Source: an uncultured bacterium (GTDB lineage: Bacteria > Patescibacteriota > Saccharimonadia > Saccharimonadales > Saccharimonadaceae). Taken from it: a DNA stretch of 64,000 nucleotides. A model generated the notes under the pieces. The model searched no databases. It had not been told where the DNA came from and worked only from the letters and a program-made list of their open reading frames with translations. Location of the stretch: contig CAILCF010000001.1 in NCBI GenBank assembly GCA_903832635.1, forward strand, positions 62,001 to 126,000. The letters run 5' to 3'. Shown here piece by piece: positions 6,097 through 12,143 of this stretch. The position numbers were made by a program, and so were the translations under genes. The number at the start of each line of letters is the position of its first letter. Positions within the stretch are counted from its first letter, which is position 1.

Positions 6097-8769
6097 ATGG
6101 CTAAATTAAAACGTATCTGGCTATTCCGCGAAGGCAACGTTAACATGCGCGACGAACTTGGAGGCAAGGGCGCCAACCTGGCAGAGATGACCAAAATCGG
6201 TCTACCGGTACCTGCAGGATTCACAATTACAACAATGACTTGCAACGAATATACGGATTTGGGCGGACAACTCCCAAGCGGATTTATGAGCGAAATTAAA
6301 ACCGCACTGGCCGATGTTGAAAAAGATATGGGCAAAAAACTTGGCGACCCGATTAATCCCCTGCTAGTTTCAGTTCGTTCCGGTGCAAAATTCTCGATGC
6401 CGGGCATGATGGATACTGTTTTAAATTTAGGATTAAATGACGTCACAGTCAAAGCATTGATCAAAGAAACCGGCAACGCCAGATTTGTTTATGACTCGTA
6501 CCGACGCTTCCTGATGATGCTTTGTGACGTGGCTTTTTCAAAACCCGATAACAAACTTGCTAAACATGATTTTGAAGTCATTTTCAGCGATCTAAAGAAA
6601 AAACTTGGTGTAAAAATTGATACCGACGTCGACGCTGATGGATTAAAAGAACTTGTTGATTTATATAAAGTACATATCAAGAAGGAGCTTGGGCGTGACT
6701 TCCCGCAAGATGTTTTCGAACAATTACAAATCTCTATCGAAGCCGTTTTCCGTTCATGGAACAACGACCGTGCCAAAATCTACCGACAGCGCGAAAAAAT
6801 CTCTGACAGCCTTGGTACCGCCGTTAATATCCAAGCAATGGTCTTTGGTAACATGGGCCAAGATTGCGGAACGGGTGTCGCCTTTACCCGCGACCCGGCT
6901 GCCGGGCATAACCAGGTTTTCGGCGAATATCTAATGGATGCTCAGGGCGAAGACGTAGTCGCCGGCGTTCGTACACCAATGCCAATCTCCAAACTTGAAA
7001 CTCAAAATCCAAAAATCTACAAAGAATTTACGGATATCTGCGAAAAATTGGAAAAACACTACCGTGAAGTCCAAGACATTGAATTTACTATCGAGCACGG
7101 TGTTCTTTATATCTTGCAATGTCGTACAGCTAAAAGAACCGGCCCAGCCGCTGTTAAGATTGCCGTCGACATGGTTCACGAAGGATTAATAAATATAAAC
7201 ACTGCAATATCACGCATCAGCCCAGACCAACTGGACCAATGTCTGCATGCAATTATTGCCCCAGGCACAAAATATACGGTTCTAGCCAAAGGCCTGCCAG
7301 CCGGCCCCGGCGCAGCTACCGGAATCGCTATATTTGACGCTCATCGTGCAGCTGAACTTGGTAAAGGCGGCAAGGGACAAAAAGTCCTTCTGGTCCGCGC
7401 TGATACCAGTCCGGATGATTTAAAAGGCATTTTGGCATCCGAAGGTGTATTGACCGAACGCGGAGGAATGACTTCTCATGCTGCCTTGGTCGCTCGTGGC
7501 TTTGGTATCCCTACTGTTGCCGGTTGTTCAGCTATACGCGTTGACGCCAAAAATCGCCAGTTCACAATTGGCAACAAAGTTATAAAAGAGGGTGAATTCA
7601 TCTCGATTAACGGCACGCTTGGTGAAGTTATCGAAGGTGAAGTTGCCGTCGTTGATCCCGAAATGACCGGCGAATTCGGTGAACTGATGAAGTGGACCGA
7701 TAAAGTCCGCCGTCTAAATATTCGAACAAATGCTGATACTCCCGAAGATGTCGCTTTGGCTGTTAAATTCGGTGCCGAAGGCATTGGACTTTGCCGCACC
7801 GAACATATGTTCTTTGCAACAGAGCGCCGACCAATTGTTCAGGCTATGATTATGTCTGAAACAGATGCCGAGCGCCAAGTTCAACTTGATAAACTGCTGG
7901 CATTCCAGCGCAAAGATTTTGTTCAGATTTTCAAAGCCCTGAATGGACTCCCGGCAACAATCCGCCTGATTGATCCCCCGCTACACGAATTCTTGCCAAA
8001 CCTGGAAGATTTAATCGAAGAGGTCGCAACCTTAAAAGCCAAAGGCAAATCAGATCCAGTCAAAGAGGAAATGCTGGCCAAAGTTCGTTCGATGCACGAA
8101 GTTAACCCAATGATGGGCCTACGTGGTTGCCGACTTTCAATTGTCTTCCCGCAGATTGTAGAAATGCAGACTCGCGCAATCATCGAAGGCGCAATAGAAT
8201 CCAAAAAGGCCGGTGTCGAAGCTTTGCCAGAGATAATGGTTCCACTGGTTGGACATGTTAACGAACTGAAGTGGATTCGCGAAAGGCTGGAAAAGACCGC
8301 CAAAGAAATCGTTAAAAAATCCGGCCAAACCATCGATTACAAGATTGGTACGATGATCGAGATTCCACGCGCTGCCCTAACTGCTGACCAAATTGCGCAA
8401 CACGCTGAATTCTTCAGCTTTGGCACCAACGATTTAACACAAATGACTTTCGGCTATTCCCGTGACGACTCGGACAGGTTCTTGAAACCATATATTGAAG
8501 AAAAGATTCTGCCTGGTGATCCGTTTGAATCAATCGACCAAGATGGTGTCGGCCAACTGATTGAAATCGCAGTTAAAAAGGGCCGCTCGGTCCGACCAAA
8601 ACTAAAAGTTGGCATCTGTGGCGAACATGGTGGCGAACCGGCATCAATCGCTTATTGTCACCGAATTGGCTTGGATTATGTCAGTTGTAGCCCTTACCGC
8701 GTCCCGATTGCACGTCTGGCTGCCGCTCAGGCTAATTTACCGGATACTTCGGCTTCCAAGGACAAATAG
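6097..8769 (+). CDS. ppdK: Pyruvate, phosphate dikinase
   Basis: Interconverts pyruvate, ATP and phosphate with PEP, AMP and PPi; in small fermenters it often works in glycolysis. The 890 residues give the full three-domain enzyme: N-terminal ATP-grasp (GGKGANLAEM near 22), central phosphohistidine domain (GGMTSHAALVARGFGIPTVAG with His461) and C-terminal TIM barrel (LCRTEHMFF, then GICGEHGG with catalytic Cys841). An AAGGAGGTG site sits before the ATG. It appears monocistronic, in its own unit between the rpsT terminator and the first small-protein cassette. Confidence 0.97.
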   Translation: MAKLKRIWLFREGNVNMRDELGGKGANLAEMTKIGLPVPAGFTITTMTCNEYTDLGGQLPSGFMSEIKTALADVEKDMGKKLGDPINPLLVSVRSGAKFSMPGMMDTVLNLGLNDVTVKALIKETGNARFVYDSYRRFLMMLCDVAFSKPDNKLAKHDFEVIFSDLKKKLGVKIDTDVDADGLKELVDLYKVHIKKELGRDFPQDVFEQLQISIEAVFRSWNNDRAKIYRQREKISDSLGTAVNIQAMVFGNMGQDCGTGVAFTRDPAAGHNQVFGEYLMDAQGEDVVAGVRTPMPISKLETQNPKIYKEFTDICEKLEKHYREVQDIEFTIEHGVLYILQCRTAKRTGPAAVKIAVDMVHEGLININTAISRISPDQLDQCLHAIIAPGTKYTVLAKGLPAGPGAATGIAIFDAHRAAELGKGGKGQKVLLVRADTSPDDLKGILASEGVLTERGGMTSHAALVARGFGIPTVAGCSAIRVDAKNRQFTIGNKVIKEGEFISINGTLGEVIEGEVAVVDPEMTGEFGELMKWTDKVRRLNIRTNADTPEDVALAVKFGAEGIGLCRTEHMFFATERRPIVQAMIMSETDAERQVQLDKLLAFQRKDFVQIFKALNGLPATIRLIDPPLHEFLPNLEDLIEEVATLKAKGKSDPVKEEMLAKVRSMHEVNPMMGLRGCRLSIVFPQIVEMQTRAIIEGAIESKKAGVEALPEIMVPLVGHVNELKWIRERLEKTAKEIVKKSGQTIDYKIGTMIEIPRAALTADQIAQHAEFFSFGTNDLTQMTFGYSRDDSDRFLKPYIEEKILPGDPFESIDQDGVGQLIEIAVKKGRSVRPKLKVGICGEHGGEPASIAYCHRIGLDYVSCSPYRVPIARLAAAQANLPDTSASKDK

Positions 8770-8805
8770 ATTAACTCCCTAAAGTGTTAGCAGGCTTAAA
8801 TACTA

Positions 8806-8834
8806 TTGACAAATATAAGCAAAAGTAGTATAAT
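8806..8834 (+). promoter_or_regulatory. Consensus promoter of cassette 1
   Basis: TTGACA (8806-8811), a 17-base spacer and TATAAT (8829-8834) match the sigma-70 consensus exactly. Transcription should begin near 8841, giving a leader of about 130 bases. Confidence 0.85.
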
Positions 8835-8840
8835 GGCCCC

Positions 8841-8972
8841 AACTTGGTGATATTGTCGCTGGGTGGTATGTTAACAACAAATCGAATCATTATAGTTCAC
8901 TTGCGGTCCGATTCATTGGACCCTTTTTGGACTATACCCTTTCAATTTTCCCCCGCGATAAAGGAGTCACAG
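8841..8972 (+). other. Long 5' leader of cassette 1, homologous to the leader of cassette 2
   Basis: This untranslated stretch aligns over its length with 9849-9991. Shared blocks include GGTGAT, CTGGGT-GTA, TTAACA, AATCGAAT-ATTAT and GTTCACTTG. A local hairpin GGTCC-N8-GGACC follows. Conserved non-coding sequence ahead of unrelated coding sequence suggests a functional RNA element or a recombination arm. No known riboswitch was recognised. Confidence 0.55.
8879..8902 (+). repeat. Inverted terminal motif, left end of cassette 1
   Basis: This 24-base motif, AAATCGAATCATTATAGTTC plus four more bases, matches the reverse complement of 9725-9748 at 19 of 24 positions. The same arrangement bounds cassette 2. 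Confidence 0.5.
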
Positions 8973-9290
8973 ATGAAAAGACGTTACTCAATAAGTACGT
9001 TGGTCAGCTGGTTGCTGGCGGTGGCACTTGGAGCGGTTGGTGTGGCGACGGTGTTCTTCATCGTCAATGCCCTAATCCTACTCCACTTCCACACCTACAG
9101 CTGGCACGACGACGTCCTGATCAAGGCTGCAACAGATGCGCTTTATGTTGCTGGTGCAGCCGTGGCTGGATTGGCGACAATAGTAGTCGCCAAGATCGTC
9201 AAGTTCATCGTGTTCTGCATCTGGGTGTTCTGCATCTGGGTGCTGATGACCCTTCAAGGCGAACCTCTTCCCCAAAGGAGACAAGTATGA
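8973..9290 (+). CDS. Small membrane protein, cassette 1 gene A
   Basis: Not recognised. The 105 residues start MKRRYSISTLVSWLLAV and hold about three hydrophobic segments (about 10-35, 55-70, 72-92), so an inner-membrane protein with a basic N-terminus is likely. The ATG at 8973 was chosen for its AAAGGAG site; an in-frame ATG at 8868 lies in the conserved leader without one. A perfect 15-base tandem duplication (9210-9239) repeats VFCIW. GC content is visibly higher than that of ppdK and purF. Its stop overlaps the next start (ATGA), so the two are translationally coupled. Confidence 0.7.
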   Translation: MKRRYSISTLVSWLLAVALGAVGVATVFFIVNALILLHFHTYSWHDDVLIKAATDALYVAGAAVAGLATIVVAKIVKFIVFCIWVFCIWVLMTLQGEPLPQRRQV

Positions 9291-9628
9291 GCCACAAGCT
9301 CAAGGTCAGCGACATGGCGCCACCTACAAACCCCGATGCGGGTGCGTGGTTTTGCGCCATGGTCGGTGGCATGGCTGGACTCGTTCTAGCCTACAAGGTC
9401 ACTGTCGCGATCGGGTTTAACCTGACCGTGCACTGGATGGGACTTCCCGTCAGCATCAGCGGTCTCGTCAACTTCGTGATTGTCGTTACCGGGATTATCC
9501 TGATCGGCGCTCAATGCTACTATCTGGGTAGCCTAATCGACAAACGGCTTGTGCCGCGGGTCGAACAGGCCATCCTAGATGCAGCCGACAAGGCCGCCAA
9601 GCATCCTCAACACGGAGGAAAATGGTGA
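9287..9628 (+). CDS. Small membrane protein, cassette 1 gene B
   Basis: Not recognised. The 113 residues hold two transmembrane segments (about 22-42 and 55-80) and a basic, alanine-rich tail ending KAAKHPQHGGKW. An AAAGGAG site precedes the ATG, which overlaps the stop of gene A by four bases. Composition is GC-rich like its partner. The shared unit with gene A suggests a two-component membrane complex, but nothing in the sequence names a function. Confidence 0.7.
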   Translation: MSHKLKVSDMAPPTNPDAGAWFCAMVGGMAGLVLAYKVTVAIGFNLTVHWMGLPVSISGLVNFVIVVTGIILIGAQCYYLGSLIDKRLVPRVEQAILDAADKAAKHPQHGGKW

Positions 9629-9660
9629 ACGAGAGCAATCTCGTACACTTGGAAGGGTTC

Positions 9661-9715
9661 CCGTAGGAGAGGCTCGGTCTGCGCAATATGCGTAGAACCG
9701 ACGCCTCTCCTACGG
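9661..9715 (+). terminator. Large stem-loop closing cassette 1
   Basis: CCGTAGGAGAGGC pairs perfectly with GCCTCTCCTACGG over 13 bp, with TCGGT/ACCGA and CGCA/TGCG pairs inside. No T run follows, so it is not a standard intrinsic terminator. The outer arm CGTAGGAG/CTCCTACG and its flanks recur at the end of cassette 2. Confidence 0.6.
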
Positions 9716-9724
9716 CGTACAAAA

Positions 9725-9748
9725 CAGCGAATTATAATGACTTGATTT
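9725..9748 (+). repeat. Inverted terminal motif, right end of cassette 1
   Basis: The core GCGAATTATAATGACTTG follows the stem-loop directly and is nearly identical to the right end of cassette 2 (10687-10710). Its reverse complement resembles the left-end motif. Confidence 0.5.
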
Positions 9749-9774
9749 AATAACATAAAGAAATAATAAATCAA

Positions 9775-9789
9775 AAAGGTCCGTCCTTT
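9775..9789 (+). repeat. AAAGGTCCGTCCTTT dispersed near-palindrome, copy 1
   Basis: This 15-base element is followed by CTGTGGATAA. Related copies lie at 10725-10739, 13780-13816 and 13855-13869. The 363-base gene-free stretch 9629-9991 otherwise holds the cassette 1 stem-loop and right end, and the cassette 2 promoter and leader. Confidence 0.7.
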
Positions 9790-9813
9790 CTGTGGATAAG
9801 TAGTCTGCTTATC

Positions 9814-9842
9814 TTGACAAATAAGATGTAAAATATTAAAAT
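9814..9842 (+). promoter_or_regulatory. Promoter of cassette 2
   Basis: TTGACA (9814-9819), a 17-base spacer and TAAAAT (9837-9842). Only the boxes match the cassette 1 promoter; homology between the units starts just downstream. Confidence 0.8.
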
Positions 9843-9848
9843 AGTGTC

Positions 9849-9991
9849 TTACTTTGGTGATTTTTACTGGGTCGTAGTACTTAACAAATCGAATTATTAT
9901 TGTTCACTTGAGATGTCTGATATTTCGGATACTCGTGAACGAAACCCTTCAAAAAAGTTCTCTCTTTCCCCTAGTGAAAGGATTATTTTTC
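9849..9991 (+). other. Long 5' leader of cassette 2
   Basis: It is homologous to 8841-8972. A hairpin here pairs GTTCAC (9903-9908) with GTGAAC about 25 bases later, with a TCTGA/TCGGA inner stem. The corresponding hairpin in cassette 1 uses different bases, which hints at structure being kept while sequence drifts. The left inverted motif lies at 9886-9909. Confidence 0.5.
9886..9909 (+). repeat. Inverted terminal motif, left end of cassette 2
   Basis: It begins AAATCGAATTATTATTGTTC and matches the reverse complement of 10687-10710 at 19 of 24 positions, as in cassette 1. Confidence 0.5.
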
Positions 9992-10150
9992 ATGGAAATG
10001 CATAAGTCGGTAAGAGGTTTGCTGTTGATGACAACCAGCTTACTAGTCGTCATTAGCGCACCGCTTATAAGGTGGGCTATCCGTCGACGCACGCAACACC
10101 TCGATGCGCAAAAGAGCGCCCAACTACACGTCCGGAAACATATCCAGTAG
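9992..10150 (+). CDS. Short single-span membrane peptide, cassette 2 gene A
   Basis: Not recognised. The 52 residues begin MEMHKSVRGLLLMTTSLL, with one hydrophobic segment (about 9-29) followed by an Arg/His-rich tail. A GAAAGGA site precedes the ATG at a longish spacing. Its size and position parallel the first gene of cassette 1, but the sequences do not look alike. Confidence 0.55.
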   Translation: MEMHKSVRGLLLMTTSLLVVISAPLIRWAIRRRTQHLDAQKSAQLHVRKHIQ

Positions 10151-10168
10151 GTCTTGAAAGGAGTCGAC

Positions 10169-10300
10169 GTGGAACCTCAAGGGATGGGTCCCGTCACCGC
10201 TATGTGGTACATCTGTTGCGCCCTATGGTTGATCATTACCCACGGCACAATCGAGTGGCTCAAATCCACCACCAAACGGTGGTTCGTGATTGGAGATTGA
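10169..10300 (+). CDS. Very short membrane peptide, cassette 2 gene B
   Basis: Not recognised. This 43-residue frame starts at GTG behind a clear AAAGGAG site and encodes one hydrophobic segment (MWYICCALWLIITHG), then STTKRWFVIGD. It lies 18 bases after gene A, and its stop overlaps the upstream region of gene C. The ribosome binding site and tight packing are the only support. Confidence 0.5.
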   Translation: MEPQGMGPVTAMWYICCALWLIITHGTIEWLKSTTKRWFVIGD

Positions 10301-10301
10301 G

Positions 10302-10586
10302 GTGGCCAAGGCTAAGACCGACGACATGAAGCTGTTGAAAATTGGTGCCGTGATTGGCGCCATTTTTGGCGGTGCTTTGGTGTGGGTAGCTACACCTATC
10401 CACTTCAGGTTTGTGCCCATTCAGTCCTTGGGGTCAGCAGTCATCCAGATGATTGCCGGCCTGTTTATGGGGGCTGTCTTTGGCGGCTTCATCGGCACCT
10501 TGATAAAAATCCAGCTGACGCCGAAGCATGCCGATCCGTTCGACGTCGAAGTAGAAACCTGTAAAAACGGTGACTGCGAACAATAG
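10302..10586 (+). CDS. Small glycine-rich membrane protein, cassette 2 gene C
   Basis: Not recognised. The start is taken as GTG at 10302 behind a GGAG site at 10292; an in-frame TTG at 10290 is possible. The 94 residues hold two glycine-zipper-like membrane segments (IGAVIGAIFGGALVWVA and IAGLFMGAVFGGFIGTLI) and an acidic tail with two cysteines (ETCKNGDCEQ). Composition is GC-rich, as in cassette 1. Glycine-rich spans of this kind are common in oligomerising small membrane proteins. Confidence 0.65.
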   Translation: MAKAKTDDMKLLKIGAVIGAIFGGALVWVATPIHFRFVPIQSLGSAVIQMIAGLFMGAVFGGFIGTLIKIQLTPKHADPFDVEVETCKNGDCEQ

Positions 10587-10619
10587 TTTGGAGCAATCCC
10601 ATGAAGAAGGAAGGGTTTC

Positions 10620-10679
10620 CGTAGGAGTGGGCCGCTTGGGCTCGTGCATAATTGCACGGGGCTGGCGGCCCCTCCTACG
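10620..10679 (+). terminator. Large stem-loop closing cassette 2
   Basis: CGTAGGAG pairs with CTCCTACG, GGGCCGC with GCGGCCC, and GTGCA with TTGCAC at the tip. The flanks GGAAGGGTT upstream and AGCGAATTATAATGA downstream are shared with cassette 1. No T run follows. Confidence 0.6.
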
Positions 10680-10686
10680 CAATTAA

Positions 10687-10710
10687 AAGCGAATTATAAT
10701 GATTTGATTT
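10687..10710 (+). repeat. Inverted terminal motif, right end of cassette 2
   Basis: The core GCGAATTATAATGATTTG is nearly identical to the right end of cassette 1 and is related in inverse to the left end at 9886-9909. Confidence 0.5.
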
Positions 10711-10715
10711 AAAAA

Positions 10716-12143
10716 CTAGTTCAAAAAGGACGGACCTTTTCGGTCATTACTATCGATTATCGGATATGTTACCTCTTTACGACGCTCACGAATATCTATC
10801 GGATACTTACCGTTAAAACATGATGTAGAAAAAATCGACTCCTTCAATCCAGTGGCGTTAATCATGCCTTTGAATGACAGGTAGTTCAGGCTGGTCGAGC
10901 CCAGATATTTATTAATTTCGGCGATAGACCGATTAGCAGCAATTAAATCAGCTTGTTTTGGCAAATCAATTCCATAAAAATCCGGAAATTTAACCGGTGG
11001 TGAACTAACCAAAAAATGAACTTCACGGGCTCCTGCTTCAAATAACATCTTTACAATCTGGCGCGAAGTTGTCCCACGCACAATTGAATCATCAACAACT
11101 ATCACCCGCTTGCCTTTGATAATACCTTTTAACGGTGCCAGTTTTAGTTTTACACCTTGTTCGCGAATATGTTGTTCGGGTTCAATGAATGTCCGGTGAA
11201 TATAGCGGCTTTTAACTATGCCGGTTTCATATGGAATTCCGGTCGCCGTCGCATAACCTATGGCAACCGGGATAGCACTTTCGGGAACCGGTACTACTAT
11301 GTCTGCATCAATTTTGTATTCACGGGCCAATTCCTTACCAAAATTTTTCCTAACTTCATAAACCGACTTACCTAGCAGTTGACTGTCCGGGCGTGAAAAA
11401 TAAACGAATTCAAAGATATCAAGTTTTTGAATGCTTTTAATGATTTGTTTGCGACGCAGGCCGTTTTCATCGACAACAACCATCTCACCGGGATGTACGT
11501 CGCTGATATGCTTGGCGCCAATCGGATGAAAAGCACAAGTTTCCGACGCAAAAACCCAACCACCGTTCAATTTAGCAATTGAAAGCGGACGGATACCATG
11601 TTGGTCGCGGATGGCGATTAGTTTGTCTTTGTTCATGATAAGAATCGAAAACGCCCCGGTCATCAATGGAAAAATCTGCTGAACTGCTTTTTCCAAATCC
11701 ATACCATCCCGTGTCAAACAATAAATTGCCTCTGTTATAAGTTTAGAATCCGATGTTTCGGATGTATCAATACCCTTTTTCTTCAAAAAATCAGTTAGTT
11801 GTGCGGTTGTCGGTAAATTGCCATTATGAACCAACACGATTGAGCCGTCGGCAACTTCGATTGGCTGAGCGTGTTTTATATCACCCCCGGACGAAGTCGA
11901 ATATCGATTGTGTCCGACGGCAGCATGACCCTTCAGACTTTTTATTTCTTCTTCGCCGAAAACACTGGATACTAGGCCGTTATTTTTATAACAAAATATC
12001 TTTTTGCCGTCAGTCGATGCTATACCGGAACTTTCCTGCCCCCTGTGTTGAAGTGCATACAAACCAAAAAAAGTCAGGCGACTGACATCCAAGCCTTTAC
12101 CGTAAATACCGAATACGGCGCACTTCTCCCCAATGCTCCTCAT
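10716..12143 (-). CDS. purF: Amidophosphoribosyltransferase
   Basis: First step of de novo purine synthesis: glutamine plus PRPP to phosphoribosylamine. An N-terminal class-II glutaminase domain follows a seven-residue propeptide (Cys8 in EKCAVFGIYG; HRGQESSG; VGHNRYSTS), then the phosphoribosyltransferase domain with VIVVDDSIVRGTTSRQIV. The cysteines that bind Fe-S in Bacillus-type enzymes are mostly missing (KFPDFYGID). No other pur gene is in the window. The ATG follows a TATAAT box (12151-12156) by seven bases, so the mRNA is probably leaderless. The last residues RKGPSFLN are encoded by a dispersed repeat copy. Confidence 0.95.
   Translation of the reverse strand: MRSIGEKCAVFGIYGKGLDVSRLTFFGLYALQHRGQESSGIASTDGKKIFCYKNNGLVSSVFGEEEIKSLKGHAAVGHNRYSTSSGGDIKHAQPIEVADGSIVLVHNGNLPTTAQLTDFLKKKGIDTSETSDSKLITEAIYCLTRDGMDLEKAVQQIFPLMTGAFSILIMNKDKLIAIRDQHGIRPLSIAKLNGGWVFASETCAFHPIGAKHISDVHPGEMVVVDENGLRRKQIIKSIQKLDIFEFVYFSRPDSQLLGKSVYEVRKNFGKELAREYKIDADIVVPVPESAIPVAIGYATATGIPYETGIVKSRYIHRTFIEPEQHIREQGVKLKLAPLKGIIKGKRVIVVDDSIVRGTTSRQIVKMLFEAGAREVHFLVSSPPVKFPDFYGIDLPKQADLIAANRSIAEINKYLGSTSLNYLSFKGMINATGLKESIFSTSCFNGKYPIDIRERRKEVTYPIIDSNDRKGPSFLN
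10725..10739 (+). repeat. AAAGGACGGACCTTT dispersed near-palindrome, copy 2, inside purF 3' end
   Basis: It is in reverse orientation to copy 1 and within the last codons of purF, encoding KGPSF on the minus strand. Confidence 0.7.

Follow-up and report, generated by a model that had tools for sequence, protein, structure and literature searches.

Introduction

Bacterial mRNAs are usually pictured as linear, short-lived molecules. The full-length hok and AapA3 mRNAs are held inert by long-distance closure between their 5′ and 3′ ends, and truncation of the 3′ end activates them (PMC6733600). In Staphylococcus aureus, pairing between the 5′- and 3′-untranslated regions (UTRs) of the icaR mRNA stops translation and feeds the transcript to endoribonuclease III (RNase III) (PMC3868564). 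Here we describe two adjacent transcription units of a Saccharibacteria genome of 793 kb, found in a stretch of 64,000 nucleotides that we call the window (G000:C1:62001-126000, G000 being the genome), together with their relatives in other genomes. In all these units the leader is complementary to the tail of the same unit. Judged from sequence, a widespread class of end-closed, folded mRNAs is real and, as far as we have searched, undescribed.

An earlier note on this DNA had read the pair as conserved ends around unlike small membrane-protein genes and had suggested a cassette system, a shared RNA control element, or both. Its description holds; it missed the complementarity between leader and tail and the second helix nested within it. 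The explanation that we favour, with a probability of about 0.6, is that each unit is an mRNA with annealing 5′- and 3′-UTRs, a folded coding part, protected ends and a shared double-stranded RNA (dsRNA) handle, that the unit found across the order upstream of a PKD/DUF11 gene is ancestral, and that the window pair is a divergent branch of copies.

Results

The leader of each unit is complementary to its own tail

In the window, the conserved leader block and the conserved tail of a unit are reverse complements, with about 20 paired positions when G.U pairs are included. Across units this terminal helix, P1, reaches 28 bp, and the transcript ends can close on each other. In the common type, P1 comprises ∼13-20 bp plus an extension of ∼9 bp (P1b), with a bulge of 2-5 nt in the 3′ strand. 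Searching for a leader together with a complementary tail yielded at least 66 usable units, spread over about 40 genomes of Saccharibacteria, so that the shared ends, whose search beyond this genome the earlier note had proposed, are not confined to one tandem duplication in one genome.

When 58 distinct arm pairs were aligned over the 28 bp of P1, 92.2% of the cells held standard pairs, the covariation score was 0.286, and 19 of the 28 pairs had changed on both sides. None of 500 shuffles reached any of the observed measures, and sliding the partner by 1-3 columns lowered pairing to 28-39%. In the 13-bp core, arms formed 819 Watson-Crick pairs with their own partners compared to 743 ± 6 with shuffled ones. 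In another large genus, the unit at the same locus carries a different P1 sequence in which pairing is kept (CCAAATCATCTCA/TGAGATGATTTGG). The minimum free energy structure (MFE) of the complete RNA contained P1 in 37 of 40 full-length units; in the four units folded first (two of G000 and two of a second genome, G003) it always contained both P1 and a second helix, P3 (AAACCCTTC/GAAGGGTTT in the window units), nested within P1. Taken as a structure, the P1 helix is well supported by these comparisons.

Several features bear on whether the helix belongs to RNA or to DNA. G.U pairs outnumber A.C mismatches in P1 by 48 to 24, a single position being G.U in 23 units, and promoter-like sites with at least 10 of 12 matches lie upstream of 41 of 65 units versus 5.8% of shuffles. 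Because of the G.U excess, the one-sided bulge, the fixed gene orientation and the upstream promoters, we favour a sense RNA over a DNA repeat. The suggestion of an RNA control element is strongly supported by the covarying terminal helix, a promoter just upstream, a fixed orientation and the full-length folds. A small hairpin adjoins the 3′ strand of P1 in 27 of 69 units, versus a control rate of 19%, and is clear (GAGTC/GACTC, GAACC/GGTTC, GAGCC/GGCTC, GATTC/GAATC) mainly in the canonical subset; we take it as supportive only.

Coding regions are folded beyond their synonymous shuffles

The complete RNAs of the two window units gave folding z-scores of -9.5 and -6.0 against dinucleotide shuffles. 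Against synonymous-codon shuffles, which leave the protein and the codon usage unchanged, the mean z of the coding region was -3.3 for units of the window type (n = 8), -5.3 for long units (n = 16) and -1.9 for short units (n = 22), and the same control gave a mean of -0.5 for 40 flanking genes. A second set, drawn mostly from other families or genera, gave -3.95 for 27 segments versus -0.64 for 52 flanking ones (p = 4e-9). AT-rich members are likewise folded, for example with z near -7 at a GC content of 0.40-0.43. As had been noticed before, the window units are GC-rich (coding GC 0.55 and 0.52 versus 0.41 for the whole window); GC at third codon positions amounts to 0.58-0.68 in the unit genes versus 0.39-0.44 in the two flanking genes. 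Selection for folding may explain these GC-rich third positions.

The two units of the window

The two units lie between the PPDK gene (6097-8769) and the minus-strand gene for amidophosphoribosyltransferase (10716-12143). In each of them a near-consensus promoter is followed by a 130-145 nt leader, two or three genes for small membrane proteins, a 3′ hairpin (P4) and a conserved tail.

8806..8834, plus strand: unit 1 promoter, sigma-70-like TTGACA-17-TATAAT, 12/12 consensus positions
8841..8972, plus strand: unit 1 leader (5′-UTR), with a conserved block that recurs in other genomes
8879..8900, plus strand: unit 1 P1 5′ strand, AAATCGAATCATTATAGTTCAC, complementing 9727-9750 and present in the full-length MFE
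8905..8922, plus strand: unit 1 leader hairpin P2, from folding
8936..8943, plus strand: unit 1 P3 5′ strand, ACCCTTTC, partner 9651-9658 in the full-length MFE
8973..9290, plus strand: unit 1 gene a, membrane protein of 105 aa, weak orthologue in G003
9287..9628, plus strand: unit 1 gene b, membrane protein of 113 aa, G003 counterpart not alignable
9651..9658, plus strand: unit 1 P3 3′ strand, GGAAGGGT, in the full-length MFE
9661..9715, plus strand: unit 1 3′ hairpin P4 (CCGTAGGAGAGGC/GCCTCTCCTACGG), from pairing, 3′-end alignment and folding
9727..9750, plus strand: unit 1 P1 3′ strand, GCGAATTATAATGACTTGATTTAA, from alignment, pairing and MFE
9814..9842, plus strand: unit 2 promoter, sigma-70-like TTGACA-17-TAAAAT, 11/12
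9849..9991, plus strand: unit 2 leader (5′-UTR), from alignment
9886..9907, plus strand: unit 2 P1 5′ strand, from pairing and MFE
9941..9950, plus strand: unit 2 P3 5′ strand, GAAACCCTTC, partner 10610-10619
9992..10150, plus strand: unit 2 gene a, 52 aa, single membrane segment
10169..10300, plus strand: unit 2 gene b, 43 aa, single membrane segment, resembling by eye the C-terminal part of the fourth gene of unit 2 in G003
10326..10586, plus strand: unit 2 gene c, 86 aa, glycine-rich membrane hairpin, start possibly further upstream, weak orthologue in G003
10610..10619, plus strand: unit 2 P3 3′ strand, GAAGGGTTTC, from pairing and MFE
10620..10679, plus strand: unit 2 3′ hairpin P4, from pairing, alignment and MFE
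10689..10712, plus strand: unit 2 P1 3′ strand, GCGAATTATAATGATTTGATTTAA, from alignment, pairing and MFE

The twin layout described in the earlier note is confirmed by alignment. The two leaders (8841-8972 and 9849-9991) share 61% identity across 137 aligned bases, with a best block of 93% (8876-8903 and 9883-9910), and the 3′ ends are 70% identical over 133 bases, with a best block of 91% (9723-9754 and 10685-10716); the outer arm of P4, CCGTAGGAG/CTCCTACGG, is found in both units. Between these shared ends, the two genes of unit 1 and the three of unit 2 show no evident mutual similarity, and each of the five products (105, 113, 52, 43 and 86 aa) has at least one predicted membrane segment.

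Unit 1 gene a contains a perfect tandem duplication of 15 bases at 9210-9239 (GTGTTCTGCATCTGG twice), which repeats five residues of a membrane segment; this in-frame change is probably recent. Both tails are followed by a short palindrome (9772-9792 and 10722-10742) in opposite orientations (AAAGGTCCGTCCTTT and AAAGGACGGACCTTT), a possible weak terminator.

Long units share one locus and short units form arrays

Copy number per genome was based on pattern searches. A simple leader-core pattern matched 17 of 60 relatives (zero for the reversed control) and 39 of 295 genomes of the order. Phylum-wide the pattern matched 4 of 192 genomes, two of them being G000 and a genome of the same family. 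Some public contigs and G handles designate one genome (e.g. L147 and G003). Four window-type sequences gave covariance models that were too narrow to detect the common type.

Long units, of 1.4-3.4 kb, lie directly upstream of a gene family, F0, that encodes a PKD/DUF11 surface protein with an LPxTG-like end (e.g. L087 2546-3853, L042 1188-3041) and usually starts shortly 3′ of the long-unit tail. A long unit occupies this locus in several families of the order; a further large genus within the window's family also has it, and the window's genome has its own at C2:90595 (L172). Related units are carried by the complete Saccharibacteria genome TM7i. Beside long units of several genomes we observed a tRNA gene a few hundred bases upstream on the opposite strand (L087 6957-7028, L097 5867-5938, L172 6840-6911), and a TTAACAA..GGC motif conserved after the tails (e.g. 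L087, L218), TTAACAA also occurring ahead of P1.

Short units, of 0.4-1.0 kb, are found mainly in the window's genus, either singly or in tandem arrays of up to seven with one orientation. They sit between housekeeping genes, e.g. rpoC/rpsL, rpoB/clpP and trmH/hisS, and end-closed units would account for “orphan” small-protein clusters in such places. In some stand-alone short units a terminator-like hairpin follows the tail. Three typical units occur in L143, a contig titled Herbinix sp. (a Firmicute) that is probably a mis-binned Saccharibacteria contig.

The position of the long units raises the question of whether P1 is a processing stem. Helices of more than 20 bp are good substrates of RNase III, and we found this enzyme in 26 of 30 genomes searched. 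P1 could act like the stems of 16S and 23S ribosomal RNA, freeing the unit message from its neighbours, for instance from the surface-protein gene just after the tail. This account is rather unlikely in our judgement: stand-alone short units with their own promoters, including some with the terminator-like hairpin, retain the stem, and the folding of the coding regions is left unexplained.

Conserved ends enclose fast-changing cargo

Proteins encoded by long units have 300-660 aa. The second open reading frame (ORF) of these units, ORF2, forms a single secreted or lipoprotein family with a Pro-rich tail and a conserved cysteine (23 sequences); its predicted structure has a confident core at residues 60-215, for which no fold match was found in PDB or viral models. 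The cargo of short units is far more variable, and the pattern of conserved ends around variable cargo extends to the whole collection: only 2 of 40 short-unit proteins had a BLAST relative among all cargo, to which sensitive searches added remote paralogues in neighbouring units of three arrays and little else. Pfam, PHROGs and NCBIfam searches on 87 cargo proteins gave almost nothing credible except one DUF5652 match, a protein with a relative in G009 that is encoded by an ordinary gene and not within a unit. Comparison of G000 with G003, two different species, shows the contrast within one locus: identity is 92% for PPDK and 75-80% for the unit 1 leaders, whereas gene a retains 24% identity over 59 aa and no alignment is possible for gene b. 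Fast divergence and gene capture both seem to occur; as some neighbouring cargos are remote paralogues, duplication with very fast divergence accounts for some of the pattern.

Since the proteins of short units are very weakly conserved and the RNA is globally folded, one could regard the units as large ornate non-coding RNAs with incidental ORFs. Such an explanation is highly improbable, as ORF2 forms one family in which a cysteine is conserved and the core is modelled with confidence, the GC content at cargo codon positions is of the type of coding DNA, and many cargo ORFs are preceded by Shine-Dalgarno-like sites.

A second possibility is a lock of the hok, AapA or icaR type, in which pairing between 5′ and 3′ ends blocks translation until processing, the products being small membrane toxins or effectors acting on a host. 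Both the inert, closed full-length hok and AapA3 messages (PMC6733600) and the translational block by UTR pairing in icaR (PMC3868564) are precedents, and roughly one in two short-unit cargos contains a membrane segment. On the other hand, the Shine-Dalgarno sites lie downstream of P1 and, in the window, of P3, whose leader strands have the 3′ tail as partner instead, so masking of these sites was not found, and long units encode proteins of the sizes given above. We regard a lock as a doubtful interpretation.

Possible mobility of the units

At one site, two whole units including the promoter lie between rpsL and rpoC in G013 and none is present in its relative G012, homology between the two genomes ending near the unit promoter. 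Large serine recombinase genes occur within a few kb of units in L087, L095 and L037. Empty sites, recombinase genes near three units, tandem arrays, mostly orphan cargo and the DUF5652 relative outside any unit would all suit a mobile gene-cassette system, in which the ends work as signals in DNA (terminal inverted repeats or attC-like sites) and cargo is moved or exchanged by recombination. We nonetheless consider such DNA signals decidedly unlikely. The tail pairs with its own leader, unlike attC with the next: in arrays it matched its own leader better in 16 of 20 neighbours and worse in 1, and we rejected attC-like pairing between a tail and the next leader. Moreover, the arms conserve G.U pairs and a one-sided bulge, the insertion takes in a promoter that lies outside the repeat, and the long unit is fixed at one locus across the order.

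No target-site duplication was seen by eye at the inspected sites, transposases not having been searched genome-wide, and no integron integrase was noticed among the flanking families examined, where no IntI search was run. A phage or plasmid origin was rejected, since IMG/VR had no match to one unit motif and phage and plasmid records had none to whole units. The cassette half of the earlier suggestion may or may not hold: arrays, insertions and the DUF5652 gene agree with it, while no recombinase tied to the units, no target-site duplication and no shared mobile cassette was found. Mobility of the units is possible.

No unit matched any family of Rfam 15 at the gathering score, including the covariance models of OLE, ROOL, GOLLD, HEARO and LOOT, and relaxed E-values gave only chance hits, none credible, for the window units and L087. 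LOOT RNA (RF03000) is common in Saccharibacteria, being present in 12 of 60 relatives, but separate from the units (e.g. L181 11701-11816), once ∼4 kb downstream of a long unit; it was not found in the window's genome. A description of the unit layout was not found in the searchable literature, subscription papers being outside that scope.

Discussion

Beyond the complementarity, covariation, fixed orientation, upstream promoters and excess coding folding established by computation, we infer from the sequences that P1 forms in the cell. According to the favoured explanation, each unit would be transcribed from its own promoter into one mRNA whose 5′- and 3′-UTRs anneal via P1, with P3 nested inside in the window type. 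The ribosome-binding sites would be left within the closed loop, and for this reason the units would differ from locks that mask the Shine-Dalgarno sequence. The coding sequence itself would be selected for folding, and the resulting compact RNA, both ends shielded from exonucleases, would presumably be long-lived. The conserved dsRNA with its bulge could serve as a shared handle, recognised by RNase III and/or by a dedicated RNA-binding protein, through which a set of envelope and secreted proteins might be co-regulated. In the window's genus, the scaffold would have been copied in tandem and to other sites, carrying fast-diverging or newly captured genes.

Several observations weigh against this explanation. 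Because the units share ancestry and P1b was fitted by choosing the bulge length that suited best, the statistics of P1 overstate independence; the replacement of the entire helix sequence between genera at one locus is unaffected by this caveat. P1 is absent from the MFE of three of the 40 full-length units. The F0 surface-protein gene downstream, in which no closing helix was detected, is also over-folded (z about -2.4 to -2.9), and coding-region folding therefore also occurs outside the units. P1 begins, in the median, ∼165 nt 5′ of the first start codon, so that no direct effect on translation is evident, and no intrinsic terminator was established 3′ of P1.

In its broadest form the proposal is that Saccharibacteria possess a dedicated class of end-closed, globally folded messages, in which a transferable scaffold circularises the mRNA without a covalent bond around synonymously folded coding sequence, serving to express and diversify envelope and secreted proteins; we find the case for this finely balanced. 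If true, an entire class of bacterial mRNAs would be designed RNA objects, and the units would constitute an mRNA-level cassette system known from no other organism. They would open a way into gene regulation in Patescibacteria, about which little is known, and a view of how these tiny parasitic bacteria make and diversify surface and secreted proteins. Given the units in the complete genome TM7i and in the second large genus, cultivated strains could be used for testing.

Among the systems with which the units can be compared, integron cassettes share same-orientation arrays, short orphan genes and imperfect palindromes; in the units, the palindrome arms flank one gene, match within the unit and come with the unit's own promoter. 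OLE, ROOL and GOLLD are likewise large, globally folded bacterial RNAs, but they are non-coding (PMC12286853), whereas the interior of the units is coding and hypervariable. LOOT RNA is also a structured RNA of Saccharibacteria, and differs in its length of 121 nt and in its sequence.

The icaR, hok and AapA messages come closest, as covariation and folding predict paired ends of one mRNA for the units as well. With hok and AapA3 the units share end-to-end pairing, a compact mRNA and small membrane proteins (PMC6733600); there, the closed form masks the Shine-Dalgarno sequence and an antisense RNA takes part, whereas many unit cargos are larger or multi-gene and P1 lies off that sequence. In icaR, as in the units, the 3′-UTR pairs with the 5′-UTR of its own mRNA, making dsRNA (PMC3868564); the icaR pairing is a short motif over the Shine-Dalgarno sequence of one gene, whereas that of the units is up to 28 bp long, lies away from this sequence and recurs in dozens of unrelated messages. 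Pairing between 5′- and 3′-UTRs was already known in single messages; what the units would add, undescribed as far as we have searched, is a transferable closing scaffold, variable cargo and synonymously folded coding sequence.

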